Assembly (NCBI RefSeq): GCF_023023025.1
Contig: NZ_CP095481.1
Span: 620,001-684,000, forward strand
Length of the DNA stretch: 64,000 nucleotides
DNA from: Amycolatopsis sp. WQ 127309
Lineage (GTDB): Bacteria; Actinomycetota; Actinomycetes; Mycobacteriales; Pseudonocardiaceae
Reading direction: 5' to 3'
Both the position numbers and the translations under genes were made by a program. This document shows, piece after piece, positions 1 to 15,273 of this stretch (within the stretch, counting starts at the first letter, position 1; every line of letters starts with the position of its first letter). The notes beneath the pieces were generated by a model that had not been told where the DNA came from, did no database searches, and saw only the letters and a program-made list of their open reading frames with translations.

Positions 1-1
1 C

Positions 2-787
2 ACCCGGTCGCACTACCGGCGGCTGCTGGCGCAGCAGCCGGAAGACCAGCGTTACGACCCGTTCGCCGACTGGTACGAGGGCTACTGCGAGCGCTACGGC
101 TTCGAGTTCGGCGAGGACATGGTCACCGGCCAGTTCAGCGTCGACCAGTTCCCCGGTTCGCTGCGGATGGCCGCCGACGACGTCGACTACCTGCCGATGC
201 GGCACGTCCCGTACGGCGGCCCCGCGTCGGTGCCGCACTGGCTGTGGGCGGCGCCGACCCGCCCGCGCGTCGCGCTCACCCTGGGCAGCACCGCCGCCAT
301 CCGGTTCGACGGCTACACCGTGGACGTCCAGGACGTCCTCACCGCGCTCGGCGACCTCGACATCGAGGTGATCGCCACCGTCGCCGACAACGTCCGCGGC
401 CGGCTCACCGCGGTGCCGCGCAACACGCGGATCGTGCCGTACGCGCCGCTGCACGCCCTCGCGCCGACCTGCGACGTCGTGATCAACCACGCCGGCGCGG
501 GCACCTACCTGGCCGTCGCGCTGCACGGCGTCCCGCAGCTGACGCTGCCGTGGGACCTCGACGAGCCCGAGCTGGCGCGCCGCGCCACCGCGCACGGGTC
601 GGCGCTGATGATCCGCGGCGACCACGCGACCGGTAAGGACGTCGCCGACGGCGTCGCCCGCCTGCTCGCCGAGCCGCGGTTCCGCGCACGGGCCGTCGAC
701 CTGCGGGACGAGATGCTCGCGCTGCCCTCGCCCAACGACGTCGTCGGCCAGCTGGAAGAGCTGACCGTGAAGTTCCGGACGCGCTGA
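2..787 (+). CDS. GT1-family glycosyltransferase 1 (5' end outside window)
   Basis: C-terminal two thirds of a macrolide/oligosaccharide-type GT-B glycosyltransferase. The reading frame is open to the left edge, so the start is missing. The donor-binding half is intact: a CDVVINHAGAGTY segment followed by HGVPQLTLPWDLDEP, the NDP-sugar pocket of EryCIII/DesVII-like enzymes. It should transfer an NDP-deoxysugar to a cluster product in the cytoplasm. It is closely related to the five genes downstream and its TGA overlaps the next ATG by one base (TGATG), so the two are translationally coupled. Donor and acceptor cannot be read from sequence. Confidence 0.9.
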   Translation, partial: TRSHYRRLLAQQPEDQRYDPFADWYEGYCERYGFEFGEDMVTGQFSVDQFPGSLRMAADDVDYLPMRHVPYGGPASVPHWLWAAPTRPRVALTLGSTAAIRFDGYTVDVQDVLTALGDLDIEVIATVADNVRGRLTAVPRNTRIVPYAPLHALAPTCDVVINHAGAGTYLAVALHGVPQLTLPWDLDEPELARRATAHGSALMIRGDHATGKDVADGVARLLAEPRFRARAVDLRDEMLALPSPNDVVGQLEELTVKFRTR

Positions 788-2022
788 TGCGGATCCTGTT
801 CACCGTCATCGCCGAGCGGACGATCTTCTGCTCGATGGTCCCGCTGGCCTGGGCGCTGCGGACGGCCGGGCACGAGGTGCGCGTCGCCTGCCAGCCCGCG
901 TTCGCCGACGTGGTGACGCAGGCCGGGCTCACCGCCGTCCCGGTCGGGCGCGACGCGACGATCTGGCGGATGGAGAGCCTCGACCCGGCGCTGCTGGAGC
1001 AGGCGCGGGCCGGGCTGCCGAGCCCGTGGCGGGTGGTCGAGGACCCGGCCGGCGCCGACTGGGAAGACCTGCGCGAGGGCCACCGCGTCGCCGTCGACGA
1101 GGGCCACAAGCTGGAGAACTTCCCGCTGATCAACGGCCTCGCCGAGTTCGCCAGGGCGTGGGAGCCGGACCTGGTGATCTGGGAGCCGCTGACCTACGCG
1201 GGCCCGATCGCCGCGAAGGCGTGCGGCGCCGCGCACGCCCGGCTGCTCTGGAGCCTCGACGTCTTCGGCGCGACCCGCGAGATCTACCGGCGGACGGCGA
1301 ACGGCGCCCCCGAGGATCCGCTCGCGGACTGGCTCGGCGGCTACGGGCGCAAGTACGGCTTCGAGTTCGGCGAGGACATGACGACCGGGCAGTTCAGCAT
1401 CGACCAGGTACCGCCGTCGATCGGCCTGCGCGCGGGCGACCTGGACTACCGGCCGATGCAGTACGTCCCCTACGGCGGCCCGGCCGCCACCCCGGACTGG
1501 CTGCCCACCCAGCGTCCGCGCATCGGCCTCACCCTGGGCACCACGGCGACCGAGCACTTCGGCGGCTACGTCGTCAACGTCGCGGACACCCTGGCCGAGC
1601 TGTCCACTTTGGACGTCGACGTGGTGGCGACGGTCAAGGATCCCGCGTTCCCGATCCCGGCCAACGCGCGCGTGGTGCCCTTCGTCCCCCTGGACGCGCT
1701 GGCCCCGACCTGCGACGTCGTCATCGACCACGCCGGGCCGGGCACGTTCCTGACGGTGGCCCGCCACGGCGTCCCGCAGCTGACGGTCCCGTGGGACTTC
1801 GACGAGCCCGAGCTGGCCCGCCGCGCGGCCGCGCAGGGCGGGTCGCTCACCATCCGCGGCGACCGGGCGACCGGCGCCCGGATCCGCGAGGGCGTCGAAC
1901 GGCTGCTGGCCGAACCCTCGTTCAAGACTCGCGCCGCGGACCTGCGCGACGAGCTGCGCGGCCTGCCGTCCCCCAACGACGTCGCCGACGAGATCGAAGC
2001 CCTCGTCGAGAAGAACCGGTGA
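787..2022 (+). CDS. GT1-family glycosyltransferase 2
   Basis: Complete 411-aa GT-B glycosyltransferase. The N-terminal acceptor domain begins MRILFTVIAE and contains PLAWALRTAGHEVR, the signature shared by the whole array. The C-terminal donor domain carries DHAGPGTFLTVARHGVPQL. The DHAGPGT donor loop is shared only with the next gene, which suggests the pair uses related NDP-sugars. No DesVIII-type auxiliary protein is visible in the window. The start overlaps the previous stop; the next gene begins after a 5-nt gap. Specificity is unknown. Confidence 0.93.
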   Translation: MRILFTVIAERTIFCSMVPLAWALRTAGHEVRVACQPAFADVVTQAGLTAVPVGRDATIWRMESLDPALLEQARAGLPSPWRVVEDPAGADWEDLREGHRVAVDEGHKLENFPLINGLAEFARAWEPDLVIWEPLTYAGPIAAKACGAAHARLLWSLDVFGATREIYRRTANGAPEDPLADWLGGYGRKYGFEFGEDMTTGQFSIDQVPPSIGLRAGDLDYRPMQYVPYGGPAATPDWLPTQRPRIGLTLGTTATEHFGGYVVNVADTLAELSTLDVDVVATVKDPAFPIPANARVVPFVPLDALAPTCDVVIDHAGPGTFLTVARHGVPQLTVPWDFDEPELARRAAAQGGSLTIRGDRATGARIREGVERLLAEPSFKTRAADLRDELRGLPSPNDVADEIEALVEKNR

Positions 2023-2027
2023 GGCCG

Positions 2028-3236
2028 ATGCGCGTCCTGTTCGCCACCTACCCCGAGTCCACGGTCTTCCAGCCGATGGTCCCGCTGGCCTGGGCGTTGC
2101 GCACGGCCGGGCACGAGGTCCGCGTCGCCGCGCCCCCGGTCTTCGCCGACACGATCACCGCGGCCGGGCTCACCGCCGTCCCGGTCGGACGGGAGCGCAC
2201 GAACACCTGGCGGCGGCTGCTTTCCCTGGACCCGGCCGAAGCCGAAGCCGACCGCGCGGGCCTGCCGTCGCCGTACGACGCCGCGTTGCGGCCGGTCGGC
2301 GTCGAGGAGATGCGGGCCGGGTACGCGCGGATGATCGAGCACGGCCACAAGCTGAACAACTTCGCGCTCGTCCCCGGGCTCGTCGAGTTCGCCCGCGCGT
2401 GGCGGCCCGACCTGGTGATCTGGGAAGCCACGACGTACGCCGGCGCGATCGCGGCGAAGGCGTGCGGCGCGGCCCACGCGCGGTTCCTGTGGAGCCTCGA
2501 CGTCTTCGGCGTGACGCGCGAACGTTTCCTCGCTCTCTCACCCGACGCCGACCCCTTGCGGGACTGGCTCAGCGGGTACGGCCGCAAGTACGGCTTCGAC
2601 TTCGACGAAAGCCTGGTCACCGGCGAGTTCACGCTCGACGCGCTGCCCGCGTCCCTGCGCCTGGACGCCGATCTGGACTACCGCTCGATGCAGTACGTCC
2701 CCTACAACGGCCCGTCGACGGTCCCGGACTGGCTGCAACGGCCGCGGGACCGCCCCCGGATCGGCCTCACCCTCGGCACGTCGGCCACCGAGCAGTTCGC
2801 CGGGTACACCGTGAGCGTCAAGGACATCCTGGCCGAGCTGTCCACTTTGGACGCCGAGGTGGTCGCCACCGTGGCGGAGGACCTGGGCCCGGTCGACGCG
2901 CGCGTCGTCCCGTTCGTCCCGCTCGACGTCCTGGCCCCGACCTGCGACGTCGTCATCGACCACGCCGGACCCGGCACCTTCCTGACCGTCGCGCGCCACG
3001 GCGTCCCGCAGCTGACCGTGCCGTGGACGTTCGACGAGCCCGCGCTCGCCGCCCGCGCGGCCGGCCAGGGCGGCTCGCTCACCCTCCCCGGCGACCAGGC
3101 CACCCCCAAGGCCATCCGGGAGCACGTCGCACGGCTGCTGACCGAACCGGAGTTCCGCGAGCGCGCCGCCGCGCTGCGCAAGGAGATCCGCGCCCTGCCC
3201 ACCCCGAACGAACTCGCCCACGAACTCGCCCGCTGA
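2028..3236 (+). CDS. GT1-family glycosyltransferase 3
   Basis: 402-aa GT-B glycosyltransferase with N-terminus MRVLFATYPESTVFQPMVPLAWALRTAGHEVR. The frame stays open upstream through the previous gene in another frame, but the ATG at 2028 aligns with its paralogues and sits just after their stop. The donor loop DHAGPGTF and the phrase AELSTLDAEVVATV nearly copy gene 2, pointing to a recent duplication. One basic/acidic change (PWDFDEPELARR to PWTFDEPALAAR) lies next to the sugar site and could alter donor choice. It is followed by GAGGAG and an 8-nt gap to the next ATG. Confidence 0.93.
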   Translation: MRVLFATYPESTVFQPMVPLAWALRTAGHEVRVAAPPVFADTITAAGLTAVPVGRERTNTWRRLLSLDPAEAEADRAGLPSPYDAALRPVGVEEMRAGYARMIEHGHKLNNFALVPGLVEFARAWRPDLVIWEATTYAGAIAAKACGAAHARFLWSLDVFGVTRERFLALSPDADPLRDWLSGYGRKYGFDFDESLVTGEFTLDALPASLRLDADLDYRSMQYVPYNGPSTVPDWLQRPRDRPRIGLTLGTSATEQFAGYTVSVKDILAELSTLDAEVVATVAEDLGPVDARVVPFVPLDVLAPTCDVVIDHAGPGTFLTVARHGVPQLTVPWTFDEPALAARAAGQGGSLTLPGDQATPKAIREHVARLLTEPEFRERAAALRKEIRALPTPNELAHELAR

Positions 3237-3244
3237 GGAGCACC

Positions 3245-4507
3245 ATGCGCATCCTGTTGACCACCGCCAACCAGGGCAGCATGTTCCAGCCGATGGTGCC
3301 GCTGGCCTGGGCCCTGCGCACGGCCGGGCACGAGGTCGTCGTCGCCACGCAGCCCGACTTCGTCGAGGAGGTGACGCAGGCCGGCCTCACCGCGGTCCCG
3401 GCGGGTCGCCAAGTCGACCCGCGGCGCCTCCTCGTGGCCATGCAGGTCACCGAGGACATGCTCGAAGAGGCCCGTGAAGGCCTGCACCCGCCGTACGACG
3501 CCGTCGAGGACCCGTCGAGCGCCGACTGGGACAGCATGCTCACCGGGTACGTCGACGACGTCGAGCGCTGCCGCTACGAGATCTTCTCGATGATCGGCGG
3601 GCTCGTCGAGTTCGCCCGCTCGTGGCAGCCGGACCTGGTCATCTGGGAGCCGTTCACCTACGCCGGGGCCATCGCCGCGAAGGCGTGCGGCGCGGCGCAC
3701 GCGCGTCTCCTGTTCGGCGCCGACGTCTACGGCCGCGCCCGCGAGATCTTCCGCGGCTTCGGCCAGACCGAAGACCCGCTGGCCAAGTGGTTCGCCTCCT
3801 ACGGCCGCAAGTACGGCTTCGACTTCACCGAGGACCTGATCACCGGCGACTTCACGATCGACCCGATGCCGGCCAGCCTGCAGTGCGAAGCCGACCTCAA
3901 CTACCTGCACATGCGCAACGTCCCCTACGGCGGCGTCGCGATCGCGCCGTGGTGGCTGGAGATCAAGCCCGAGAAGCCGCGCGTCGCGCTCACCATGGGC
4001 CTCACCGCGACCGGCCACTTCGCCGGCTACACGATCGACATCCAGGACGTCCTCGACGCGCTCGCCGACCTCGACGTCGAGCTGTACGCGACCGTCCCGG
4101 AGGACGAACAGGAGAAGCTGCGCAGCATCCCGGAGAACGCGCTGCTGATGCCGTACATCCCGCTGCACGCGCTCGCGTCGACGTGCTCGGTCGCGATCAA
4201 CCACGCCGGCGTCGGCACGCTTTCGACGTTCGCGCTGCACGGCGTCCCGCAGCTGACCCTGCCGTACCACTTCGACGAGCCGCTGATCGGCCGCCGCTTC
4301 GCCGCCACCGGCGCCGGCCTGACCATGCACGGCATCCCGATCGACGCGGACACGATCCGCGCGAACGTGCTGCGGCTGCTGGAAGAACCGTCGTTCACCG
4401 AAGGGGCGGCGCGGCTGCGCGACGAGATGCACGCGCTGCCGACGCCGAACCAGCTGGTCGGCGAGCTGGAAGCGCTGACCGTCAAGCACCGCGGCGGTGC
4501 CTCGTGA
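3245..4507 (+). CDS. GT1-family glycosyltransferase 4
   Basis: 420-aa GT-B glycosyltransferase with a strong GAGGAG Shine-Dalgarno just before ATG 3245. It is the most divergent copy in the donor half: the loop reads NHAGVGTLSTFALHGVPQL and is followed by PYHFDEP rather than PWDFDEP. This resembles gene 1 (NHAGAGT) more than its immediate neighbours. The acceptor half has an insertion-like RRLLVAMQVTEDMLEEA stretch. Its last codons overlap the GTG of the next gene by 4 nt, so translation is coupled. It probably adds a different sugar from genes 2 and 3. Confidence 0.93.
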   Translation: MRILLTTANQGSMFQPMVPLAWALRTAGHEVVVATQPDFVEEVTQAGLTAVPAGRQVDPRRLLVAMQVTEDMLEEAREGLHPPYDAVEDPSSADWDSMLTGYVDDVERCRYEIFSMIGGLVEFARSWQPDLVIWEPFTYAGAIAAKACGAAHARLLFGADVYGRAREIFRGFGQTEDPLAKWFASYGRKYGFDFTEDLITGDFTIDPMPASLQCEADLNYLHMRNVPYGGVAIAPWWLEIKPEKPRVALTMGLTATGHFAGYTIDIQDVLDALADLDVELYATVPEDEQEKLRSIPENALLMPYIPLHALASTCSVAINHAGVGTLSTFALHGVPQLTLPYHFDEPLIGRRFAATGAGLTMHGIPIDADTIRANVLRLLEEPSFTEGAARLRDEMHALPTPNQLVGELEALTVKHRGGAS

Positions 4508-5721
4508 AGGTCCTGTTCTGCGCGTTGCCGCAGCTGACGCACTTCTACGCCACGGTCCCGCTGGCCTGGGCACTGCGCACGGCCGGGCACGAGGTGCGGT
4601 ACGCGACCTCGCCCGACTTCGCCGAAGCCGTGACGGACGCCGGGCTCACCGCCGTCGCGGTCGGCCCGGCCGACGCCGGGGACGACGAGGAGATCGCCGA
4701 GGAGGCCCCGTCCGGGCTGCCCGCGCCGTACGACCTCGCGGAGTCGGGCGCGGACTGGACGGACGGCCACGCCGAGGCGTTCGACGCGATGGTCACCTAC
4801 GCCTTCGGCGAGTTCAACGCGCCGATCCTCGACGCCCTGGTCGCGTTCGCCCGCTCCTGGCAGCCGGACCTGGTGCTGTGGGAGCCGTTCACCTACGCGG
4901 GCGCGTTCGCCGCGGCGGCGTGCGGGGCGGCACACGGCCGGGTGCTGTTCGGCACGGACTTCCTCGGCGTGACGCACGAGTGGATCCACACGCACGTCCC
5001 GGACGACCGGCTCACCGGGTGGCTGACTTCGACGGCCGCTTCGTTGGGTGTTCCCTACACCGATGACCTGCGGTCCGGGCACTTCACCGTCGACCAGCTG
5101 CCGTCACCGCTGCGGCTGTCGTCGCCGGAGCTGGAGTACGTCCCGACGCGGTACGTCGCCTACGGCGGCCCGGCGGAAGTGCCCGCCTGGCTGCGGGAAA
5201 CCCCGTCACGCCCGCGGATCGCGCTCACCTTGGGCACCTCCGCGACGCTGGAGTACGGCGGCTACACCGTGCAGGTGACCGACCTGCTCGCCGCGTTGTC
5301 CACAATGGACGTCGAGGTCGTGGCGACGGTCGATGGGCCGGTGCCGGACAACGTGCGAGCGGTGCCGTACGTGCCGCTCGACGCCCTCGCCCCGACGTGC
5401 GCGGCGGCGATCCACCACGGCGGCTTCGGCACGCTCCTGACGTTCGCCCGCCACGGCGTCCCCCAGCTGACCCTGCCGCACGACTTCGACGCGCCCCTGC
5501 TGGGCCGCAAGCTCGCGGCCCAGGGCGCCGGGCTGACGATCGACCCGGCCCAGGCCAGCGGCCGCCGGATCCGGTGGAGCGTCGAACAACTGCTGGGCAA
5601 CAAGGGCATCCGAGCGTCCGCAACCGCGCTGGCCGGGGAGATCGCGGCGATGCCCAGTCCCAACGACGTCGTCGCGCGGCTCGAGGAACTGACCACGAAA
5701 CACCGCGGAGGCCGGCCGTGA
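4504..5721 (+). CDS. GT1-family glycosyltransferase 5
   Basis: 405-aa GT-B glycosyltransferase starting at GTG 4504, inside the stop of gene 4 (GTGA overlap). The N-terminus MKVLFCALPQLTHFYA differs from genes 1-4 and is nearly shared by gene 6. The donor loop is HHGGFGTLLTFARHGVPQL, the classical HHGG form of macrolide glycosyltransferases, followed by DFDAPLLGRKL. Genes 5 and 6 therefore form a third subgroup. A cytoplasmic NDP-sugar transferase acting in the same glycoside pathway is the expected role. Confidence 0.93.
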   Translation: MKVLFCALPQLTHFYATVPLAWALRTAGHEVRYATSPDFAEAVTDAGLTAVAVGPADAGDDEEIAEEAPSGLPAPYDLAESGADWTDGHAEAFDAMVTYAFGEFNAPILDALVAFARSWQPDLVLWEPFTYAGAFAAAACGAAHGRVLFGTDFLGVTHEWIHTHVPDDRLTGWLTSTAASLGVPYTDDLRSGHFTVDQLPSPLRLSSPELEYVPTRYVAYGGPAEVPAWLRETPSRPRIALTLGTSATLEYGGYTVQVTDLLAALSTMDVEVVATVDGPVPDNVRAVPYVPLDALAPTCAAAIHHGGFGTLLTFARHGVPQLTLPHDFDAPLLGRKLAAQGAGLTIDPAQASGRRIRWSVEQLLGNKGIRASATALAGEIAAMPSPNDVVARLEELTTKHRGGRP

Positions 5722-6959
5722 AGGTCCTGTGCTGCGTCCTGCCTCAGCTGACGCACTTCTACGCGCTCGCGCCGATCGCGTGGGCGCTGCGCACCGCCGG
5801 GCACGAAGTCCGGGTGGCGAGCACGCCGGGGTTCACCGACGCGATCACCCGCGCCGGCCTCACCGCCGTCCCGCTCGGTCACGACCCGGAGCCCGACCCC
5901 GAGGACGACACGCCGGAGGCGCAGGAGGCGCGCGACGCGTTGCGGCGCGGCTTGCCGAAGCCGTACGACCTCGCGGAGTTCACGCCGACGCCGGCCGACT
6001 GGACCGACGAGCGCGCCGAGGCGTTCGAGATGATGGTGACGTACGCGTTCGGCGAGGACAACGAGCCGCTGCTGGACGGCGCCGTCGAGTTCGCCCGCGC
6101 GTGGCGGCCGGACCTGGTGCTGTGGGAGCCGTTCACCTACAGCGGCGCGCTGGCGGCCCACGCGTGCGGCGCCGCGCACGGCCGGGTGCTGTTCGGCACG
6201 GACTTCCTGGGCGTCACGCACGACTGGATCCGGCGCTTCGCCGCCGCCGACCGCCTCACCGAATGGCTCACCGAAACCGCGTCCCGCCACGGCCTCCCGT
6301 ACGAGGATCACTTGCGTGCCGGGCACTTCACCCTCGACCCGCTCCCGCCGAGCCTCGCCGTTTCCCTGGACGCGCTCCCGGTCCGCTACACCCCGTACGG
6401 CGGCGCCGCGGTGGTCCCGCCCTGGGTGACCAAGCCGCTCGACCGCCCCCGCGTCGCGCTGACGCTGGGCACGTCGGCGACGGAGTACTCGGGCTACACG
6501 GTGAACGTCCGCGACATCCTGGCCGCATTGTCCACAATGGACATCGAGGTGGTGGCGACGATCGCGGACCCGGAGTCGCTGGGCCCGATCCCGTCGAACG
6601 CGCGAGTGGTCCCGTACGTCCCCCTGGACGCCCTGGCGGCGACGTGCACCGCGGCCATCCACCACGGCGGTTTCGGCACCCTGGCGACGTTCTCCCGCCA
6701 CGGCGTCCCCCAGCTGACCCTCCCGTACGACTTCGACGCCCCCCTGCTGGCCCGCAAGCTGGCGGAGCAGGGAACGGGCCTGACAGTCCACTCGGACGAC
6801 GCCACCGGCCCCGCCGTCCGCAATGCCCTACAACGACTCCTGACAGAACCGGGCTTCCGCACCCGAGGCCAGGCGCTATGCGCCGAAATCGAGGCCCAGC
6901 CGGGCCCGAACGACCTGGTGACCCAGCTGGAACAGCTCACCCGCAAGCACACCCCGTAA
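5718..6959 (+). CDS. GT1-family glycosyltransferase 6 (last of array)
   Basis: 413-aa GT-B glycosyltransferase. GTG 5718 overlaps the previous stop (GTGA). N-terminus MKVLCCVLPQLTHFYALAPIAWALRTAGHEVR and donor loop HHGGFGTLATFSRHGVPQL make it the sister of gene 5. It has a short acidic insertion (EPDPEDDTPEAQEA) near residue 60 that the sister lacks. It ends the polycistron: the TAA at 6957-6959 touches a long perfect hairpin. No other gene type interrupts the six copies, so chain extension by successive glycosylation is the natural reading. Confidence 0.93.
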   Translation: MKVLCCVLPQLTHFYALAPIAWALRTAGHEVRVASTPGFTDAITRAGLTAVPLGHDPEPDPEDDTPEAQEARDALRRGLPKPYDLAEFTPTPADWTDERAEAFEMMVTYAFGEDNEPLLDGAVEFARAWRPDLVLWEPFTYSGALAAHACGAAHGRVLFGTDFLGVTHDWIRRFAAADRLTEWLTETASRHGLPYEDHLRAGHFTLDPLPPSLAVSLDALPVRYTPYGGAAVVPPWVTKPLDRPRVALTLGTSATEYSGYTVNVRDILAALSTMDIEVVATIADPESLGPIPSNARVVPYVPLDALAATCTAAIHHGGFGTLATFSRHGVPQLTLPYDFDAPLLARKLAEQGTGLTVHSDDATGPAVRNALQRLLTEPGFRTRGQALCAEIEAQPGPNDLVTQLEQLTRKHTP

Positions 6960-7016
6960 AGCCGTGAAGGCCTCCTTACCGGCCATAAGAGCCGGTAAGG
7001 AGGCCTTCACGGCTTT
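6958..7016. terminator. Bidirectional hairpin terminator, 26-bp arms
   Basis: Perfect inverted repeat: arm 6958-6983, 7-nt loop, arm 6991-7016, with A and T runs at the outer ends so it works on either strand. It lies between the convergent glycosyltransferase array and the rmlA-TAL operon and overlaps the TAA of the last glycosyltransferase. Core GTGAAGGCCTCCTTA. Confidence 0.9.
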
Positions 7017-7035
7017 GGGCGGAGCCGCGGGAGGA

Positions 7036-7650
7036 TCAGTTGTACTGCAGGGCGTCCAGGCCGATCGCCAGGCCGAGCGCGAGGCGGCGGTCGATCTCGT
7101 CGTCTTCCAGGCGCAGCAGGTAGTTGTCCGACAGCCGCGCGGTCTTCTCCACCGCGCCGACGACCCGGTCCTCGCCGCGGGTGAAGTCGAAGTGGTACTT
7201 CCAGAAGAACGGGACCTCTACGTCGCCGGGCCACGGGACCAGCTTCCAGATCCGGCGGAACGCCGCCATGCCCTGGCTGCGCTCGCTGACCGTCAGGCGG
7301 TCGCGGCCGTCCTGGTCGAGCACCCAGGTCGAGCGGTAGAAGGACTTGCCGAACTTCTTGCCGAACAGACCGAGCACCTCTTCGTCGCCGTCGGCGCCCA
7401 GCACCTGGTACGCGCTGGACAGCTCTTCCACCTTGTGGGAACGGAACTTCGCGAGCACCGTTTCCTTGCTCTCGTCGGTGTAGAACGTCGCGTGTTCCTT
7501 GAACGTGAGGCGCTTCTCCTCGATGAAGGCGACCAGGTCACCCGGCTGGCCCTGACCGTCGTCCGCGTAGACGTGGTAGCGGATGACCATCAGCTTCTGC
7601 TTCTGCCGGATGTGGAACCGATCGTGCTTCTGCAGCTGGTGAATTTCCAT
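7036..7650 (-). CDS. LURP-one-related (tubby-like fold) protein
   Basis: 204 aa, no signal peptide or membrane span. The pattern (HDRFHIRQKQKLMVIRYHVYADD, repeated short basic beta strands, a hydrophobic C-terminal helix ending in IGLDALQY) resembles the LURP-one-related/tubby C-terminal superfamily, whose bacterial members have no settled function and may bind lipid. A GGGGGA Shine-Dalgarno precedes ATG 7650. It is 26 nt downstream of the glycosidase-like gene on the same strand and is the last gene of the operon before the terminator. Its role in the cluster is unknown and it may be unrelated to biosynthesis. Confidence 0.75.
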   Translation of the reverse strand: MEIHQLQKHDRFHIRQKQKLMVIRYHVYADDGQGQPGDLVAFIEEKRLTFKEHATFYTDESKETVLAKFRSHKVEELSSAYQVLGADGDEEVLGLFGKKFGKSFYRSTWVLDQDGRDRLTVSERSQGMAAFRRIWKLVPWPGDVEVPFFWKYHFDFTRGEDRVVGAVEKTARLSDNYLLRLEDDEIDRRLALGLAIGLDALQYN

Positions 7651-7676
7651 GGGTCCCCCGTAAGCGGTCTAACCGA

Positions 7677-8690
7677 TCATGGTTGCTCGATGCTAGCGCG
7701 GCCACCCCCGGCGAGCTGAACCGCGGGAACGGCGTACCGGCGCGCGATCTCGTGGAACACGTCCTTCGGTTCCCACCGATCGAGGTTGTCCGGATCGATC
7801 TTGACGACGCTGAACGACGCCATGTCCAGGTCCCGCAAGGGATCCGCGAAGTGCGGGTAGTCGCGCAACGCGAACGTGTAGACGAACGCACCGTGGACGT
7901 CGTTGCGCGCGTAGACGTCGATCATGTCGCCGACGTAGGCGGCCTGCACCCGCTCGCTGCGGATGTTGCCCTTGCGGATCTTGGGCGGCACCGAGAGCCA
8001 GTTGACGATCTTGAACGATCCCGGCCCGCGCTGCGCGCCGCCGACGTAGGCCCCGCAGCCGAACTCCGTGATGAGCAGCGGTTTCCCGGCGCGCGCGAGC
8101 CGTTCCCTCAGCCGCACCTCGAACTGCGCGGAGTTCGACGCCGTGCGGTAGAGGTTCACCCCGGCGTAGTCGAAACCGGACCAGTCGACGTCCTCCCACG
8201 ACGCCGCCGCGTAGGTGACCGGGCCGCCGAAGACCGGCTTGACCCGGCCCAGCGCCCGCGCCAGCAGCCGGTTCACCTTGCGGTTGATCCGCTTTTCGAA
8301 CCGCCGCCGCCAATGGATGGTGAGCAGCAGCCGCATCGCCTCCGGCCTGCCGGGGATCATCCCGGCCAGGTGCAGGGAGAACTCGCAGCCGACGACCAGG
8401 TTGACGCGGCCGGGGAAGCCGCGCCGCAGCTGCTCGGCGGCCAGCGCGGCGACCTCGAGGGTGCGCAGCACCTTGCGCCGCCCGATGTCCACCGGGTGCG
8501 GCTCGATCCAGACGTCGAGGCCGGCCGCCAGGGCGTTGTGCGCCGCGGTGAACAGCTTCGGCAGGTCCATCCCGATCAGGATGACGTCGGTGCAGTGGAG
8601 CTGCTCCTTGATGGCCCGCAGGTCGTGCGCGGCGACCTCCTCGGACACCTCGTCGACCTGCAGCGAGATCCCCTTGATCCGCAGGCTCAT
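7677..8690 (-). CDS. TIM-barrel glycoside-hydrolase-like protein
   Basis: 337 aa, cytoplasmic. VGCEFSLHLAG near residue 122 and LLITEFGCGAYVGG near 220 place two Glu at the ends of beta strands as in clan A retaining glycosidases (acid/base and nucleophile). The NLYR and WEDVDWSGFDYAGVN segments fit such a barrel. I cannot assign a GH family. ATG 8690 overlaps the ammonia-lyase stop (ATGA), so the two are translationally coupled, which argues for a job in the same pathway: trimming or activating a glycosylated intermediate, or self-protection. That role is inference. Similar proteins are sometimes mislabelled as abortive-infection proteins. Confidence 0.7.
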   Translation of the reverse strand: MSLRIKGISLQVDEVSEEVAAHDLRAIKEQLHCTDVILIGMDLPKLFTAAHNALAAGLDVWIEPHPVDIGRRKVLRTLEVAALAAEQLRRGFPGRVNLVVGCEFSLHLAGMIPGRPEAMRLLLTIHWRRRFEKRINRKVNRLLARALGRVKPVFGGPVTYAAASWEDVDWSGFDYAGVNLYRTASNSAQFEVRLRERLARAGKPLLITEFGCGAYVGGAQRGPGSFKIVNWLSVPPKIRKGNIRSERVQAAYVGDMIDVYARNDVHGAFVYTFALRDYPHFADPLRDLDMASFSVVKIDPDNLDRWEPKDVFHEIARRYAVPAVQLAGGGRASIEQP

Positions 8691-10213
8691 CCCGCGTCGC
8701 CGTTGGCCAGGGCGTCGGTGGCGTAGCGGTTGAGCAGGTCGCGCGCGGCCCGCACCTCGGCCGCCATCGGCCGGTCCTCGGCCAGCGGCGGGGAGATTCC
8801 GGCGAGCTCGGCCCAGATCCCGCCGTCGGGCGGCGGCGCGTCGGTCATCACGGCCAGCTGCGCGACGCCGAGAGCGAGCGAGCCGATCACCAGCCAGCCC
8901 AGCTCCAGGGCCTCGGCCACGGAGTTGGCGCCGTTGAGCGCCATCGGGACGTGGTCCTGGTTCCAGCCGTTGGTCGGCAACGTCGTCAGCGACGACGGGT
9001 AGACCAGCTGCCGGATCCGCGACACGAACGACGTCGCGCTGATGTGCACGCCCGCCAGCCCGCAGCCGCGGCCGGCGCGCGGGGTCAGCATCGGCGGCAG
9101 GTCGCCGTTGGTGGCCGGGGACAGCAGCAGCCCCAGCTGCCGTTCGGCCAGGTAGACCGCCATGTGCATGGCGAGCCCGGTCTGGTCGGAGGCGAGCCCG
9201 ACCGGCATCGCGTGGAAGTTGCCGCCGTGCAGCAGCCGCCCCTCGAAGGTGATCGGGTTGTCCTGGCAGCCGTCGACCTCCAGGGCCAGCACGTTGCCGA
9301 CGTTGTCGAGCTGGTCGAGCACCGCGCCGAGCACCTGCGGCGCGCAGCGCAGGCTGTAGGGCTCCTGCAGCGGCCGCTTCGGGTCGCGGGTCTGGCTGTC
9401 GGGCAGCTCACGCCGGATCCACTCGGCCGCGGTGAGCTGGCCGAGCTGGCCGCGCGCGATGCCGTGCCCGGCGTCGTAGTGCTCCGGGTTGGCACCCAGC
9501 AGCGTCGCGAGCCGGCCGGTCAGCATCGCGGCGGCCTGGACCAGCCGCAGCGACGACTGGTGGTTGACGATCGACTGGGCGAGGCTCGCGCCGGTGCCGT
9601 TGACGAACGCCAGCGCCTCCCGCACCGGCCAGTCGACCGGCTCGTGGCCCAGCGCGGCCAGCGCGTCCTTCGCGGGCACCGTGATCCACCGGCCGCCGCC
9701 GTCGCGGCGCCACGCCCGGCCCTGCCCGCCGAACGCCAGCGCGGCGTGCGCGAGCGGCTGCAGGTCCCCGCTGGCGCTGACCGTGCCGTGGCGCGGGATC
9801 ACCGGCGTGAAGCCCTTGTTCCACAGGTCGGCGAGGATCTGCCAGAACCGCGGCGTGACGGCGGAGTAGCCCTTGCGCATGTTCTGGATGCGCAGCCACA
9901 GGATCAGCCGCGAGACGTCGGGCGAGAGCGGTGCGCCCTGGCCGGTGCCGAGGTGGGAGATGAGCGAGCTGCCCTGCTCCATCTCGGAGTCGGCGTCGAA
10001 CACCACCAGCGGCCCGAAGCCCTGGGTGAGCCCGTACACCGGCTTGTCGGCGGTGAGGTGCTCCTCGATGGTGCGCGCGCTCGCCCGCATCCGGGCGATG
10101 TCCGCGTCGTCGCACGGGTCGATCTTCGCGTCCCAGTCGGCGCTCCAGACGATCTCGCCCAGGTACAGGGAACTGGTCAGCTCGCGGCCCTGGCTTTCGG
10201 CGATCGGTGTCAC
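8687..10213 (-). CDS. Tyrosine ammonia-lyase (MIO enzyme), Sam8-like
   Basis: 508-aa histidine/phenylalanine ammonia-lyase-family enzyme. The Ala-Ser-Gly triad that cyclises to the MIO cofactor is at 147-149 (TVSASGDLQPLAHAA). The catalytic Tyr is Y60 in YGLTQGFGP. The HL pair at 87-88 (SLISHLGTG) is the selectivity switch that in known TALs favours tyrosine over phenylalanine, so the product should be 4-coumarate. The sequence follows, almost throughout, that of Saccharothrix espanaensis Sam8 as I remember it. Sam8 makes 4-coumarate for the saccharomicin aglycone. Start and stop overlap both neighbours by 4 nt. An aminomutase activity cannot be excluded but is less likely. Confidence 0.93.
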   Translation of the reverse strand: MTPIAESQGRELTSSLYLGEIVWSADWDAKIDPCDDADIARMRASARTIEEHLTADKPVYGLTQGFGPLVVFDADSEMEQGSSLISHLGTGQGAPLSPDVSRLILWLRIQNMRKGYSAVTPRFWQILADLWNKGFTPVIPRHGTVSASGDLQPLAHAALAFGGQGRAWRRDGGGRWITVPAKDALAALGHEPVDWPVREALAFVNGTGASLAQSIVNHQSSLRLVQAAAMLTGRLATLLGANPEHYDAGHGIARGQLGQLTAAEWIRRELPDSQTRDPKRPLQEPYSLRCAPQVLGAVLDQLDNVGNVLALEVDGCQDNPITFEGRLLHGGNFHAMPVGLASDQTGLAMHMAVYLAERQLGLLLSPATNGDLPPMLTPRAGRGCGLAGVHISATSFVSRIRQLVYPSSLTTLPTNGWNQDHVPMALNGANSVAEALELGWLVIGSLALGVAQLAVMTDAPPPDGGIWAELAGISPPLAEDRPMAAEVRAARDLLNRYATDALANGDAG

Positions 10214-11316
10214 CTCGCTGCGACCTCCTCGTCGGGTGTGGTGGGGGCGGGAACGTGCCGCAGCTTGCCCAGGGCGGACCGGTCGATCCGGGGCACGACG
10301 TGCAGCTTGCGCGGCCGGACGCCCAGGCGGGCGAACGCGGCCGCGAGGTCGAGGTCGGCGACCTCGGTGCCGGGCGCGAGGGCGACGAGCAGCTCGACGT
10401 GCTCGCCGATCTTCGGGTCGGTGACCGGCAGCAGCGCGAGGTCGGCGCAGTCGAGCACGGCCCGCAGGGCGTACTCGGCGTCGTCCAGGTTGATCCGGCG
10501 GCCGTTGACCTTGACCAGGCGCCCGGCCCGGCCGGCGTGCCGGAACGAGCGCTCGCCGAGCGGCACGACCCGGTCGTCGGCCTCCCAGGACGCCGGCTCC
10601 GGTTCACCGGGCCGGAACGCCAGCCGCGGGCTGGTGACGGCCAGCGGCCCCTCGGCACCCGGCGTCACCGCACCCGCGAACCCGACGTCGGGGAACAGCT
10701 GCCACTCCGGCGGTTCGCCCTCGCGCCAGGTGCGCGTCGCGATGCCGCCCGCTTCGGTGGAGCCGAGCACCTCGACCAGCAGAGCCCGCTCCGGACCGAG
10801 CTCGCGCAGCAGGTCACCCGCGGTGCCCGGCAGCATGGCGCCGCCGTAGAGCACGGTGAGGTGGTCGAGCCCGCGCACCCAGTCCAGGTGACGCAGCAGC
10901 AGCTCGAAGATCCACGGCGTCGCCATCACCACCGGGCGCCCGCCGATGTCGGGCAGGGTGCCGTAGAAGCCGTCGCGGTACCACGCCGGCACGCGCAGGC
11001 GGGCCGGGACGAGCACCGTGGCCAGCGCGCCGAACAGGTGGACCGGCGGCACGAACGAGACGACGGCGTCCGGCCGTCCGGGCGCCACGAGGTCGGCGAG
11101 CATCCCCGCCTCGGCCCACACCTTCGGCCCGTACCGCCGCCACTGCCGGCGCGGCCCGGTGGTGCCCGAGGTGTGAAAGTCGACGACGGCGGGCAGCGCG
11201 TCCGGCCCGATCGCCGGCTCGCGGTCCCACCGGACGTGCCAGGCGCGCCCGGTCACCTCCGGCGCCGCGAACCCGGGCGTGAGCAGCTCGTGCGGGGTCA
11301 GCTCCGCGTATCCCAT
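10210..11316 (-). CDS. Short acyl-CoA ligase of the ANL family (cinnamate-type)
   Basis: 368 aa. It has the ATP-binding loop HTSGTTGPRRQ at 48-58, GSTEAGG at 185-191, and the C-terminal catalytic Lys (K351 in ALGKLRH). The P-loop lies about 100 residues closer to the N-terminus than in ordinary 500-aa ligases, and the gene cannot extend upstream because rmlA ends 4 nt before it, so the short form is genuine. It is coupled to the ammonia-lyase by an ATGA overlap. The likely reaction is adenylation and thioesterification of a coumarate/caffeate. Saccharomicin biosynthesis uses a comparable ligase (Sam7, from memory). Confidence 0.85.
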   Translation of the reverse strand: MGYAELTPHELLTPGFAAPEVTGRAWHVRWDREPAIGPDALPAVVDFHTSGTTGPRRQWRRYGPKVWAEAGMLADLVAPGRPDAVVSFVPPVHLFGALATVLVPARLRVPAWYRDGFYGTLPDIGGRPVVMATPWIFELLLRHLDWVRGLDHLTVLYGGAMLPGTAGDLLRELGPERALLVEVLGSTEAGGIATRTWREGEPPEWQLFPDVGFAGAVTPGAEGPLAVTSPRLAFRPGEPEPASWEADDRVVPLGERSFRHAGRAGRLVKVNGRRINLDDAEYALRAVLDCADLALLPVTDPKIGEHVELLVALAPGTEVADLDLAAAFARLGVRPRKLHVVPRIDRSALGKLRHVPAPTTPDEEVAAR

Positions 11317-11320
11317 CGCC

Positions 11321-12205
11321 CTAGCCCAGCGTCTCGGCGAGCTGGATCAGGTACTTGCCGTATTCGGAGCTCTTCATCGCCTCGCCGGAGGCGCGGCACC
11401 GCTCGGCGTCGATGTAGCCCATGCGCAGCGCGATCTCCTCCAGGCAGGCGACCCGCACGCTCTGGCGCTTTTCGATCACCTGAACGTATTGGCTGGCGGC
11501 GAGCAGGGAGTCGTGCGTCCCGGCGTCGAGCCAGGTGAACCCGCGGCCGAGCCGGCACAGCTGCGCGCGGCCCTCCTTGAGGTAGGCCTTGTTGACGTCG
11601 GTGATCTCCAGCTCGCCCCGCGCCGACGGCTCGATGCCGCGGGCGATCTCGACGGCGTCGGAGTCGTAGAGGTACAGCCCGGTGATCGCGTTGTCGGAAC
11701 GCGGGCGCAGCGGTTTCTCCTCGATCGACACGAGGGAGCCGCGCTCGTCCGTTTCGCCGATGCCGTAGCGCTCGGGATCGGAGACCGGGTAACCGAACAG
11801 CGTGCAGCCGTCGAGGCGCTCACGCGCGGCGCGCAGGATTCGGGAAAACCCGGCACCGTGGAAGATGTTGTCGCCGAGGATCAACGCGGACGGATTCCCG
11901 TCGATGTGGTCCGCGCCGATCAGGAGCGCCTCGGCGATGCCGCGCGGCTGGTCCTGCTCGGCGTAGCTGATGTCGAGCCCCAGGTCGGAGCCGTCACCGA
12001 GCAGCGCGCGCAGGGCCGGGATGCTGTCGGGGGTCGAGATGACCAGGATCTCCCGGATGCCGGCGAGCATCAGCACCGAAAGCGGGTAATAGACCATCGG
12101 CTTGTCGTAGACCGCGAGCAGCTGCTTAGACGTCGCCTTCGTCAGGGGGTACAACCGCGAACCGGTTCCGCCGGCGAGAACGATTCCTTTCATGGCCTTG
12201 TTCAT
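11321..12205 (-). CDS. rmlA: Glucose-1-phosphate thymidylyltransferase
   Basis: 294 aa, the full family length. KGIVLAGGTGSRLYPLT is the nucleotide-binding signature; LILGDNIFHG, EEKPLRPRSDNAITGLYLYD and GFTWLDAGTHDSL are further RmlA blocks. It joins glucose-1-phosphate and dTTP to give dTDP-glucose, the entry point to all dTDP-deoxysugars, and so feeds the glycosyltransferase array. It is the first gene of the operon, 4 nt before the ligase. An internal ATG at 12193 (MKGIVLAGG) is an equally plausible start. No rmlB/C/D is in the window. Confidence 0.95.
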   Translation of the reverse strand: MNKAMKGIVLAGGTGSRLYPLTKATSKQLLAVYDKPMVYYPLSVLMLAGIREILVISTPDSIPALRALLGDGSDLGLDISYAEQDQPRGIAEALLIGADHIDGNPSALILGDNIFHGAGFSRILRAARERLDGCTLFGYPVSDPERYGIGETDERGSLVSIEEKPLRPRSDNAITGLYLYDSDAVEIARGIEPSARGELEITDVNKAYLKEGRAQLCRLGRGFTWLDAGTHDSLLAASQYVQVIEKRQSVRVACLEEIALRMGYIDAERCRASGEAMKSSEYGKYLIQLAETLG

Positions 12206-12277
12206 TTTCTGGGTCCATTCGTCGATATACGTCGACCGCGAGGCGAGAATGAGAATGCCGCGATGTGGATATCGGGA

Positions 12278-12307
12278 ACACTAGGCAAGGCGACGCGGGG
12301 GCGTCAA
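12278..12307 (-). promoter_or_regulatory. Candidate promoter of the rmlA-TAL operon
   Basis: Read on the minus strand: TTGACG (12302-12307), 18-nt spacer, TAGTGT (12278-12283). This is a good sigma-70/HrdB-type match and gives a leader of about 65 nt before the rmlA start. Confidence 0.6.
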
Positions 12308-12409
12308 TGGTGCGGGCACCGCATCGAAGCGCTTCTCCCCGATGGCCGCGCGGCGGCGATTTCCGGTCGCGCTCCCAGCCGGGCCGGGAACGCGCCGTCG
12401 CGGGCCGGA

Positions 12410-12427
12410 CGTCCCGCCGGCGGGACG
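12410..12427. promoter_or_regulatory. 18-bp perfect palindrome, candidate regulator site
   Basis: CGTCCCGCCGGCGGGACG, perfect dyad with centre CGCCGGCG at 12415-12422. I recall CGCCGGCG being reported as the core of the LmbU target in Streptomyces lincolnensis. The site lies about 100 bp upstream of the putative rmlA -35 box and the adjacent regulator is LmbU-like. The octamer is common in high-GC DNA, but its extension to 18 bp is not. Confidence 0.5.
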
Positions 12428-12752
12428 CCGGGCCCGCGCGCGGCACCCGGCGGACCGGCGCGGAACCGGTGCCGAGTCCGACGTGGACACAGCCCGCCCA
12501 GCTTGTCAAAGGCCTACAGCGGTGCCAGAATCCACCTGGTCACCGAGGTGGTCCGCCTCTGCGCGGCGCCGCCCGCGCACCCGGACCGCTTTCGGCCGGA
12601 CGCGGGCCCCGAAGAGGCCCGTACCACTGGGGCACCTGGGGGCGCTTTGGACACGACCGTTTCGGCACGAGGCTCGTGCACGACCGGCAGCGGCGGACGC
12701 GGACGCGCGCGCCGGGCCGGGGAGCCAACGGACAAACCCGAATGACCTTCAT

Positions 12753-12773
12753 TTAGTCCACGGCGTGGACTAA
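12753..12773. promoter_or_regulatory. Palindrome with TTAGTCCACG arms
   Basis: Two 10-bp arms around a single G, perfect match. It sits in the divergent region about 300 nt before the small ORF and looks like an operator for a dimeric regulator. The cognate protein is unknown. Confidence 0.45.
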
Positions 12774-13049
12774 CCGGCAGGACCCCGCCCGGGCGGCGGG
12801 ACGTGTGCCCGGGATCACTTTTCCAATCCACCACACCGTTGTGGTGCTATCCCGGAATGGGACGGCGAGGGCGGCCGCGCGCCGTTCCGATCCCCGCGGC
12901 CGGGCACCCCGGTGAGCGGCACCGCCCGCATTCCGGAACGGCGCGCGAAGCCGCCCCGCGGAATCCCGGAAAACCCGCCCCGCACCAGGCCCGCGTGTAG
13001 GGTGCTGACACCAAGGAATTCACCCGATCGTGGAAGGAGGAGAAGGCCA

Positions 13050-13121
13050 ATGGGGAGGAGTACAGGGCGGCCCGGCGATCACGTTCGCCGGGCCGAGGTC
13101 GTCTACGTCGATGACGCCTAG
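13050..13121 (+). CDS. Small upstream ORF (23 aa) before the LmbU-like gene
   Basis: ATG 13050 follows an excellent GGAGGAG at 13034-13040, better than that of the regulator itself. It codes for a 23-aa basic-then-acidic peptide (MGRSTGRPGD..., ending VVYVDDA). The TAG at 13119-13121 merges with the GGAGA preceding the regulator, so ribosomes ending here can re-initiate on it. It is probably a translational-coupling or attenuation leader. It could also be a small protein in its own right. Confidence 0.5.
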   Translation: MGRSTGRPGDHVRRAEVVYVDDA

Positions 13122-13128
13122 GAGACGA

Positions 13129-13854
13129 ATGGTGATGATGACGAGCAAAGAGGGCAGGATTCCGCGGCACGCCGAACCGGCCGGCAGCCCGCGGGACACC
13201 GACCGGTCACCGGTCGCGTCGCCCCCGGGCCGGCTGACCGGCCGGCCGTTCACCGACGGGATGCTGACCAGGCGGACCAGCCTCAACCTGCCACCCCAGA
13301 TCCCGCTCGACGAGTGGAGCAGGATCGGCCACGAGATCTTCGTGATCTCGGAGTCCTCGACGTGGTGGCTGGGCGACTGGCTGATCTACGGGCAGGCGCA
13401 GTACCCCGACCGCTACATGCACGCGATCGCGAAGACGTCGCTGGACTACCAGACGCTCCGCAACTACGCGTGGGTGGCGCGGCGGTACTCGGTGACCCGC
13501 CGCCGGCCGGCGCTCAGCTTCCAGCACCACGCGGAGCTGGCGAGCCTGCCGGAGGAACAGCAGGAGAACTGGCTCGATCGGGCGGAGAAGTTCAGCTGGT
13601 CCCGCAACGAGCTGCGCAACCGGGTCCGGGCCAGCCGCAAGGCGGCGCGGGCGGCGGACGACGAGGGCGGCAGCGACGTCCTCAGCATCGAGATGAACGT
13701 GCCGGCGGACCGGAAGCAGCGATGGCTCGAGGCCGCCAGCACGACGAAGCAGGACCTGCTCTCGTGGATCGTGTCCATTTTGGACAACGCGGCGGACACC
13801 GTGATCGGGCTGCCGGGCGACGACCACGCGATATCGGGGAAGAAGGAAGGCTGA
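13129..13854 (+). CDS. LmbU-family cluster-situated transcriptional regulator
   Basis: About 241 aa. The core from residue 45 ([75 protein letters not shown]) is the LmbU signature, with the helix-turn-helix in the [14 protein letters not shown] region. The C-terminal tail after residue 190 is charged and probably flexible. LmbU relatives activate lincomycin, novobiocin-type and other clusters. ATG codons at 13129, 13135 and 13138 are all possible; the GGAGA at 13121 favours 13129 or 13135. It is the likely pathway switch for the divergent operon and perhaps the glycosyltransferases. A hairpin terminator follows. Confidence 0.9.
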
Positions 13855-13939
13855 CCGCCTCCCGACGCACCACCGGGGAAACCGAGTTCGACCGAAGTTC
13901 ACTGGGGACTGGGGAAAGACTTTAACTCGGGTTCACCAC

Positions 13940-13977
13940 CAGCGGCAGGCATTCCTTGCGGGGAATGCCTGCCGCTG
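13940..13977 (+). terminator. Hairpin terminator after the LmbU-like gene
   Basis: Perfect 16-bp arms at 13940-13955 and 13962-13977 with a 6-nt loop, 85 nt after the regulator stop and 43 nt before metK. It separates the two transcripts. A SAM riboswitch was looked for here and not seen. Confidence 0.75.
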
Positions 13978-14020
13978 TCTGTTACTCCCGACAAAAACTC
14001 AATGGAAGCGAGGACCCGCC

Positions 14021-15217
14021 ATGTCCGGCAGCAGGTTGTTCACCTCGGAGTCGGTGACCGAAGGGCACCCCGACAAGATTTGCGACGCCATCAGCGACTC
14101 GATCCTGGACGGGCTGCTGTCGAAGGACCCGCGCAGCCGCGTGGCGGTCGAGACCCTGATCACCACCGGGCAGGTTCAAGTCGCCGGTGAGGTGACGACC
14201 GAGGCCTACGCCGACATCCCGACGATCGTGCGGGATGTGATCCTGCGGATCGGGTACGACTCGTCGGCGAAGGGGTTCGACGGCAATTCGTGTGGCGTCA
14301 ACGTGGCGATCGGGTCGCAGTCGGCCGACATCGCCCAGGGCGTCGACACCGCGTACGAGTCGCGGGTCGAGTCGGATGAGGACGAGATCAACCGCCAGGG
14401 TGCGGGTGACCAGGGCCTGATGTTCGGGTACGCCTGCTCCGACACGCCCGAGCTGATGCCCTTGCCGATCGCGCTCGCCCACCGGCTTTCCCGTCGCCTG
14501 ACCGCGGTCCGGAACGACGGCGTGCTGCCCTACCTGCGCCCCGACGGCAAGACGCAGGTGACCATCGAGTACGCGGGCGACCGGCCCGTCCGGCTGGACA
14601 CGGTCGTGGTCTCGTCGCAGCACGCGGACGGCATCGACCTCGACCGCATGCTGGGCGTCGACGTGAAGGACCACGTCGTCGAGCCGGAGCTGGCGGGCCT
14701 CGGGATCGACACGTCCGGCGCGCGGCTGCTGGTCAACCCCACGGGCCGGTTCGTGATCGGCGGCCCGATGGGTGACGCGGGGCTGACCGGCCGGAAGATC
14801 ATCGTCGACACCTACGGCGGCATGGCCCGCCACGGTGGTGGCGCGTTCTCGGGCAAGGACCCGTCCAAAGTGGACCGTTCGGCGGCGTATGCGATGCGGT
14901 GGGTGGCGAAGAACGTCGTCGCGGCCGGGTTGGCGACGCGGACCGAGGTGCAGGTCGCGTACGCGATCGGCAAGGCGGCGCCGGTGGGCTTGTTCGTGGA
15001 GACGTTCGGGACGGAGACGGTGGACCCGTCGAAGATCCAGCAGGCCATCACCGAGGTTTTCGACCTGCGGCCGGCCGCGATCATCCGTGATCTGGACCTG
15101 CTGCGCCCGATCTACGCCCCGACCGCCGCGTACGGCCACTTCGGCCGCCCCGAGCTGGACCTCCCGTGGGAGAACACCGCCCGCGCCGCGGACCTGAAGG
15201 CCGCCACCGGCGCCTGA
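14021..15217 (+). CDS. metK: S-adenosylmethionine synthetase
   Basis: 398 aa, full length. [45 protein letters not shown], and [22 protein letters not shown] contain the ATP, Mg and methionine contacts of MetK. It makes SAM from ATP and methionine. Its place beside a pathway regulator suggests a cluster-dedicated copy serving sugar or aglycone methylation, a habit of methylation-heavy antibiotic clusters. It could equally be the housekeeping copy at the cluster border; the window does not show a second one. Its stop is followed immediately by a convergent hairpin. Confidence 0.95.
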
Positions 15218-15220
15218 CCT

Positions 15221-15273
15221 GTCGTGAGGGGCACCTTCAGGGACATCTAAGCCCTGAAGGTGCCCTTCACGAC
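15221..15273. terminator. Hairpin terminator metK / GNAT
   Basis: 22-bp arms at 15221-15242 and 15252-15273 with a single G-T wobble. The outer base reads GTCGTGA. The convergent acetyltransferase uses the TGA inside the right arm as its stop codon. Confidence 0.85.

Follow-up and report, generated by a model that had tools for sequence, protein, structure and literature searches.

A probable saccharomicin-type oligosaccharide-antibiotic gene cluster with sixteen tandem glycosyltransferase genes in Amycolatopsis sp. WQ 127309

Saccharomicins A and B from Saccharothrix espanaensis are, in the available text of a 2021 review (PMC8234114), the only two antibiotics of their kind, and they act on multiply resistant staphylococci by a mechanism that this text describes as not settled. 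A stretch of 64,000 nucleotides from Amycolatopsis sp. WQ 127309 (the window; positions 620001-684000 of contig NZ_CP095481.1) begins with a series of glycosyltransferase (GT) genes followed by a tyrosine ammonia-lyase (TAL), a short ligase and rmlA, raising the question of whether a related oligosaccharide is encoded there and how it would be assembled. Judged by sequence comparison, window positions 1-13854 very probably form the right-hand portion of a cluster for an oligosaccharide antibiotic of the saccharomicin type, a cluster of which no description was found in the literature searched (open papers only). The product is best read as an oligosaccharide of the saccharomicin type, built on a p-coumaroyl core that lacks taurine and is possibly β-methylated; in its assembly, iterative GTs would be largely replaced by dedicated ones.

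Extent of the cluster and correspondence with the saccharomicin genes

The window lies inside a single 11.13-Mb contig, and its left flank was read over 80 kb (contig 540001-620000) with genes called by our own hexamer caller, so that gene starts are approximate. The cluster occupies about contig 592828-633854 (41,027 bp), at a G+C content of 71.8% that is level with that of its flanks (71.9 and 72.2%). Its left part (contig 592828-606652) contains sugar, methyltransferase, carrier-like and bPH2 genes together with a detached GT, GTx370, and is followed by 16 tandem GT1 genes on one strand (contig 606663-626959); the last six of these open the window, and ten further GTs and the sugar genes lie to the left of its first position (contig 592828-619436).

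The saccharomicin (sam) cluster was taken from the genome of S. espanaensis DSM 44229, where Sam5, Sam29, Sam36 and the ten GTs sit where the published numbering predicts (Sam11-20 for the GTs, counted outward from the lyase), with PanD at Sam29 and a penicillin amidase at Sam36, matching PMC3469384. The WQ 127309 cluster follows sam in blocks: 14 non-GT genes are common to both (Table 1), all six window GTs match sam GTs, and the eight sugar-supply genes of sam, as we understand the review to count them, are all present at 66-84% identity. The lyase, 79-80% identical to Sam8, is by orthology a TAL; the Ala-Ser-Gly (ASG) triad of its methylidene-imidazolone (MIO) cofactor (residues 147-149) and His87, which we take to be the TAL-type position, are invariant in all 12 aligned sequences. 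Aminomutase identity was rejected on scores far under the cut-offs (234 versus 501 bits for tyrosine 2,3-mutase, 179 versus 800 for phenylalanine D-β-mutase).

The grouping of these genes goes beyond chance. A lyase scan of genome contigs gave 20 loci from 19 genomes, with TAL and ligase adjacent in every one; 18 of the loci have RmlA within 10 kb and 18 have a GT-like gene (some of the GT matches being weak or partial), and another genome of the genus, G340, keeps the whole gene order with 16 GTs, all of them open.

The original prediction, made from the window alone, had read this region as the edge of a saccharomicin-like cluster, which the block order and the 14 shared genes support. The Sam8-like lyase, the six GT1 genes (the first, 2-787, truncated where the window starts), the coumarate-type ligase, rmlA, the pathway-type regulator (LmbU) and metK that it listed are all present, the last three over curated cut-offs, and two genes absent from it (7036-7650 and 7677-8690) have been added. 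Deoxysugar genes and more GTs were expected to the left of position 1 and were found there; a Sam5-like hydroxylase, expected alongside them, has no counterpart in the 80 kb read. A polyketide or enediyne assembly line, named as the alternative content of the left flank, was not seen among the genes lying between 586171 and the array (all read, most scanned), the largest called gene within 66 kb left of the array encodes 1162 residues, and no polyketide synthase domain occurs in ten scanned proteins of 540-586 kb, a subset of the genes there, whose domains are GH95, GH31, GH1, P450, kinase and similar. Novelty for Amycolatopsis holds within the open papers searched, where the cluster is unreported; the TAL-ligase core also occurs in other Amycolatopsis and in many further genera.

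Genes for the aglycone

The cluster is not a duplicate of sam. Sam5 (hydroxylase), Sam9 (methyltransferase), Sam10 (sulfotransferase), Sam26, Sam27, Sam28, Sam29, Sam35 (adenosine phosphosulfate kinase) and Sam36 (amidase) have no counterpart in contig 540-684 kb, and no cysteate synthase passes the cut-off anywhere in the WQ 127309 genome (best score 86.7 versus 324.9 bits). Without Sam5, taurine-route and sulfation genes in that stretch, and without a cysteate synthase above the threshold in the genome, the core is expected to lack catechol and taurine, and probably sulfate.

A plain saccharomicin producer, whose hydroxylase, taurine and sulfate genes would work from other genomic locations, is very unlikely. 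Two unlinked HpaB-type relatives of Sam5 (64-66% identical) and two aspartate decarboxylase relatives (50-53% to Sam29) would speak for it, but HpaB-type genes at this level (E<=1e-150) occur in 47 of 80 genomes of the genus, this one included, and one WQ 127309 copy, 64% identical to Sam5, sits in a phenazine-like locus (contig 8281591-8288184; genes named by eye). The lack of a cysteate synthase over the cut-off, the different GT set and the added methyltransferase also argue against it, as does the absence of Sam5, Sam27, Sam29, Sam35 and Sam36 counterparts from the stretches read of the related clusters in A. suaedae and Kibdelosporangium banguiense.

On the saccharomicin side, Sam27 of S. 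espanaensis passes the cysteate synthase cut-off of 324.9 bits with 378.5, and Sam29 is PanD-like (locus 6582201-6584585 in that genome); a cysteate-to-taurine route for saccharomicin is therefore suggested, and the pair would make a plausible bacterial route to taurine, whose origin the available text of the 2012 S. espanaensis genome paper (PMC3469384) leaves unexplained.

The non-taurine core would be assembled in up to three steps. The lyase would convert tyrosine to p-coumarate, as its 80% identity to Sam8, an enzyme assayed by others, suggests. The short ligase, which scores 29.8 bits against a Pfam cut-off of 29.9 and 49.6 against 334.7 for the 4-coumarate-CoA ligase model, with no PDB match by sequence, would activate p-coumarate and load it onto the small carrier-like protein, in which the serine of a DSF motif is invariant in all 14 aligned rows (13 distinct), as in carrier proteins. 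The MppJ-type methyltransferase, which shares 57.5% identity with MppJ across 318 residues, may methylate the β carbon of the aglycone precursor. Both histidines at what we take to be the MppJ iron-ligand positions are kept in 5/5 aligned homologues.

In the available text of PMC6117699, the substrate of MppJ is phenylpyruvate, methylated at its benzylic carbon, and the role of JomM (55% identical) is confirmed by deletion. The cluster enzyme shares sequence and metal-ligand histidines with JomM and with MppJ, the phenylpyruvate β-C-methyltransferase of mannopeptimycin (PDB 4kib); unlike MppJ, which belongs to a nonribosomal peptide synthetase cluster, it sits in a TAL-oligosaccharide cluster. 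By this analogy, a β-methylated hydroxycinnamoyl core is possibly the simplest use of such an enzyme beside a tyrosine lyase.

The glycosyltransferase array and its proposed assembly line

Both array GTs scanned (own_12 and own_16; array genes are numbered own_01 to own_16) exceed the cut-offs of the EryCIII-like Pfam families PF21036 and PF06722 and narrowly miss that of the activator-dependent family TIGR04516 (430 and 419.3 versus 440 bits), so these two are filed as EryCIII-like GT1 only. Donor classes were assigned from a tree that covers 71 GTs of five clusters, with donor-loop motifs compared alongside; the donor roles and iteration of the Sam enzymes follow the available text of the review (PMC8234114), and Sam13 was assigned to epivancosamine by our own residue count. 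Five GTs (own_01, 02, 03, 05 and 10) are fucose-type, grouping with Sam17 and Sam20 at 97/95; own_04, 11, 12 and 13 are saccharosamine-type (Sam18, Sam19), a weak clade whose members have a donor-loop pattern in common; own_06 is rhamnose-type (with Sam16, 99/100) and own_07 digitoxose-type (with Sam15, 99/100); and own_08, 09 and 14 are epivancosamine-type (own_08 with Sam14 at 100/100, own_09 and own_14 with Sam13 at 97/94). The motifs agree with the tree classes, the best single Sam match agrees with the class in 13 of the 14 assigned GTs, and the classes of own_04 to own_09 repeat the order Sam18 to Sam13.

The available text of PMC8234114 gives saccharomicin five fucose and four saccharosamine residues, and in sam two GTs serve each sugar. 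The arrays of WQ 127309, A. suaedae and K. banguiense each hold five fucose-type and four saccharosamine-type GTs, equal to these residue counts; since the three arrays share ancestry, this is one evolutionary observation and not three. Because residues served by two sam GTs each are matched here by as many enzymes, iteration is proposed to have been largely replaced by dedicated GTs. In its strictest form this would be a near one-enzyme-one-bond assembly line that arose by gene duplication, building about 17 sugars on a β-methyl-p-coumaroyl core that differs from the one in saccharomicin, with the longest array found in the TAL-ligase-GT family, a proposal that we make only tentatively and consider rather doubtful.

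A chain longer than the 17 sugars of saccharomicin, with several of the 16 GTs still iterating as in sam, is quite possible, though short of an even chance. Iteration by the Sam GTs in the review text, the single rhamnose-type and single digitoxose-type genes and purifying selection on all 16 GTs (the ratio of nonsynonymous to synonymous substitution rates, dN/dS, against G340 is 0.018-0.192, compared with 0.116-0.456 for 21 left-flank genes) favor it, but the match of fucose- and saccharosamine-type GT numbers to the residues of the 17-mer would then be coincidence. The same dN/dS values, none above 0.192, make it hardly credible that the array is a duplication in decay, only a few of whose genes still work; the adjacent sister genes own_15 and own_16 (100/97) speak for it, but every GT is an open gene in G340, where the array order is unchanged, and their donor motifs are distinct by class. 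This explanation is disfavored.

With dedicated enzymes largely replacing iteration, assembly may be pictured as follows. RmlA, RmlB, the 2,3-dehydratase, 3-aminotransferase, 3-C-methyltransferase, epimerase and ketoreductases would, with good support from their sam counterparts, supply the sam set of thymidine-diphosphate (dTDP) deoxysugars. The 16 GTs could then extend the chain from the phenol outwards, a fucose-type enzyme acting first, and many of the 16 might make one bond each, whereas the ten sam enzymes iterate; GTx370 may attach a further sugar. The bPH2 pair and the glycosidase may serve self-protection or editing. Three parts of saccharomicin, its catechol, taurine and sulfate, would be missing from the product.

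Several observations weigh against this reading. No compound is known from the cluster, and the 5/4 correspondence could be chance. The best Sam match of own_11 is Sam13 (456 bits) and not Sam19 (454), the saccharosamine clade has a support of 84/85 (77 in a quick tree without three GTx rows), own_15 and own_16 fall in no donor class, and the Sam donor roles come second-hand from PMC8234114 and not from its primary source. With one rhamnose-type and one digitoxose-type GT, a 17-mer would need iteration or help from other enzymes. β-Methylation would require the TAL to accept β-methyltyrosine, and the carrier-like protein matches no carrier family in Pfam and none in NCBIfam. The unlinked HpaB-type hydroxylases could still provide a catechol, and 540-684 kb was the only stretch searched for the sulfation genes Sam10 and Sam35, where neither has a match.

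Accessory genes, relatives and comparison with known systems

The features of the cluster are collected in Table 1.

Table 1. Features of the cluster and its right border; positions are those of the window unless marked as contig (NZ_CP095481.1, G000:C1 in our numbering)
Feature	Position	Strand	Identity to sam counterpart (%)	Remarks
GT own_11 (C-terminal part)	1-787	+		whole gene contig 619453-620787; saccharosamine-type by tree and motif
GT own_12	787-2022	+		EryCIII-like GT1, saccharosamine-type
GT own_13	2028-3236	+		saccharosamine-type, clade with Sam18 (86/93)
GT own_14	3245-4507	+		Sam13 clade; epivancosamine-type by residue counting
GT own_15	4504-5721	+		in a separate subclade together with own_16 and GT15 of A. 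suaedae; no donor class
GT own_16	5718-6959	+		own subclade with own_15; no donor class
204-aa conserved protein	7036-7650	-		fold without known match; kept in A. suaedae, K. banguiense and G340 clusters
AcvX-like clan GH-A-type glycosidase (predicted), 337 aa	7677-8690	-		sequence and fold match to PDB 7y4h
Tyrosine ammonia-lyase	8687-10213	-	80	Lyase_aromatic E=4.3e-107; Sam8 orthologue
Short AMP-forming coumarate ligase (predicted)	10210-11316	-	65	Sam7 orthologue
rmlA, glucose-1-phosphate thymidylyltransferase	11321-12205	-	84	NCBIfam 422.4 versus 360.65 cut-off
LmbU-family regulator	~13129-13854	+	41	start codon uncertain; NF038070 228.7 versus 125 bits
metK	14021-15217	+		539.2 versus 309.4 bits
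MppJ-type keto-acid C-methyltransferase	contig 593845-594873			
Small carrier-like protein	contig 601965-602321		69	
RmlB	within contig 592828-606652			
Detached GT GTx370	within contig 592828-606652			nearest solved relative SsfS6
3-C-Methyltransferase	within contig 592828-606652		75	
Gfo/Idh 3-ketoreductase	within contig 592828-606652		66	
RmlC-type epimerase (5-epimerase)	within contig 592828-606652		75	
NDP-hexose 2,3-dehydratase	within contig 592828-606652		77	
DegT 3-aminotransferase	within contig 592828-606652		81	
Aldo/keto reductase	within contig 592828-606652		68	
Short-chain dehydrogenase (SDR) 4-ketoreductase	within contig 592828-606652		71	
Two bPH2 membrane proteins	within contig 592828-606652		67 and 47	

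The predicted glycosidase matches no Pfam family over its cut-off, and its AcvX-like/GH113-like fold match comes from a model with a mean predicted local distance difference test score (pLDDT) of only 66.5; E103 and E209, presumably the catalytic pair of clan GH-A, are invariant in 5/5 homologues. AcvX (PDB 7y4h), which deglycosylates lobophorins according to its PDB entry title alone, comes from a different type of cluster. For the 204-residue protein there is no Pfam family over the cut-off, no NCBIfam or PHROG match and no significant PDB match, and its structure model was discarded (mean pLDDT 43.6). In Bacillus, bPH2 proteins of the YdbS/YdbT kind confer protection from antimicrobials.

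Three metK genes occur in the genome (in the window and at contig 5719380-5720634 and 9070199-9071370). The window gene, 92% identical in DNA to the copy at 5719380, was rejected as the housekeeping one; since the copy at 5719380 likely fills that role, the window gene is an extra copy, possibly for S-adenosylmethionine supply to the cluster, of which its membership is uncertain. Extra supply would make sense because the sugar 3-C-methyltransferase needs this cofactor. A metK gene lies beside the cluster in G340, and none was seen beside the A. suaedae, K. banguiense or sam clusters.

The cluster boundaries are inferred from conservation, because, when both flanks were compared with 30 relatives, no intact empty site appeared among the matches listed, the flank matches being scattered paralogues. 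At the left border lies a gene for a ThiG-like protein (contig 589540-590280, E=6.7e-49) that is kept in G340 and lacks a counterpart in the stretches compared from sam, S. tamanrassetensis, A. suaedae and K. banguiense. A repeat of about 65 bp (contig ~591367-591432) has 91-97% matches at several other sites in the genome, and a palindrome some 50 bp long directly after metK (window ~15221-15273) recurs on both strands at many sites in this and related genomes. An Rfam scan of the window gave nothing. In contig 592800-635300 the first GT (606663-607931) is the only called gene that contains TTA, a codon that may allow control of the bldA type.

Lyases at E<=1e-100 are found in 17 of 297 genomes of the family and 8 of 80 of the genus, WQ 127309 being included in both; the surroundings were read for matches other than those at 49-52% in the family (G292, G127, G066, G016) and G300, G339 and G327 in the genus. 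TAL-ligase loci occur in Kibdelosporangium, Saccharothrix, Amycolatopsis, Herbidospora, Salinispora, Prauserella, Streptomyces, Actinosynnema, Nocardiopsis and Actinoplanes, GT counts over the 20 loci being lower bounds from at most 10 kb on each side. Fifteen clusters (WQ 127309, G340 and 13 regions) were read over at least 40 kb, with gene splits possible in the calls of other genomes (one GT in G053 is split). Array GTs number 16 in WQ 127309 and G340, 15 in A. suaedae, 14 in K. banguiense, 12 in S. tamanrassetensis and 10 in S. espanaensis; the other nine clusters hold at least 11, 11, 9, 8, 7, 7, 4, 4 and 1 GT-like genes per stretch. The K. banguiense genome carries two different TAL-ligase-GT clusters (L071, L090). 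Three Streptomyces loci (L080, L081, L083) combine RmlA-ligase-TAL and a C-methyltransferase with proteins of about 1400 residues and no GT array in the stretch, and probably represent a different product class; in Herbidospora galbida (L088), RmlA-ligase-TAL adjoins a 2300-residue protein, with no matching GTs within 10 kb.

Together with its relatives, the WQ 127309 cluster turns a saccharomicin singleton into a family whose members differ naturally in how many GTs they have, in the core and in their accessory genes, and points to a wider family of saccharomicin-related antibiotics. In the available text of the 2012 genome paper (PMC3469384), no cluster then known had as many GT genes as the ten of sam; ten iterative enzymes set beside 16 make it testable how a GT set fixes the number of actions per enzyme. 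The carrier-like and bPH2 proteins, unassigned in the available text of the sam papers, become candidates for core steps and self-resistance.

The WQ 127309 and sam clusters both have the TAL-ligase-rmlA unit, the LmbU regulator, the carrier-like protein, the two bPH2 proteins, the eight sugar genes and tandem EryCIII-like GTs in block order. They differ in array size, in the Sam genes listed above that only S. espanaensis has, and in RmlB, the MppJ-like methyltransferase, GTx370, the AcvX-like glycosidase and the 204-residue protein, which of the two only WQ 127309 has. The last four of these are the same in A. suaedae (G254) and K. banguiense (G163), for whose clusters no report was found in open papers; A. 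suaedae carries an additional detached GT, while in K. banguiense none of the 14 GTs is of the Sam16 (rhamnose) type and the genes for the ligase, lyase and glycosidase point the same way as the GTs.

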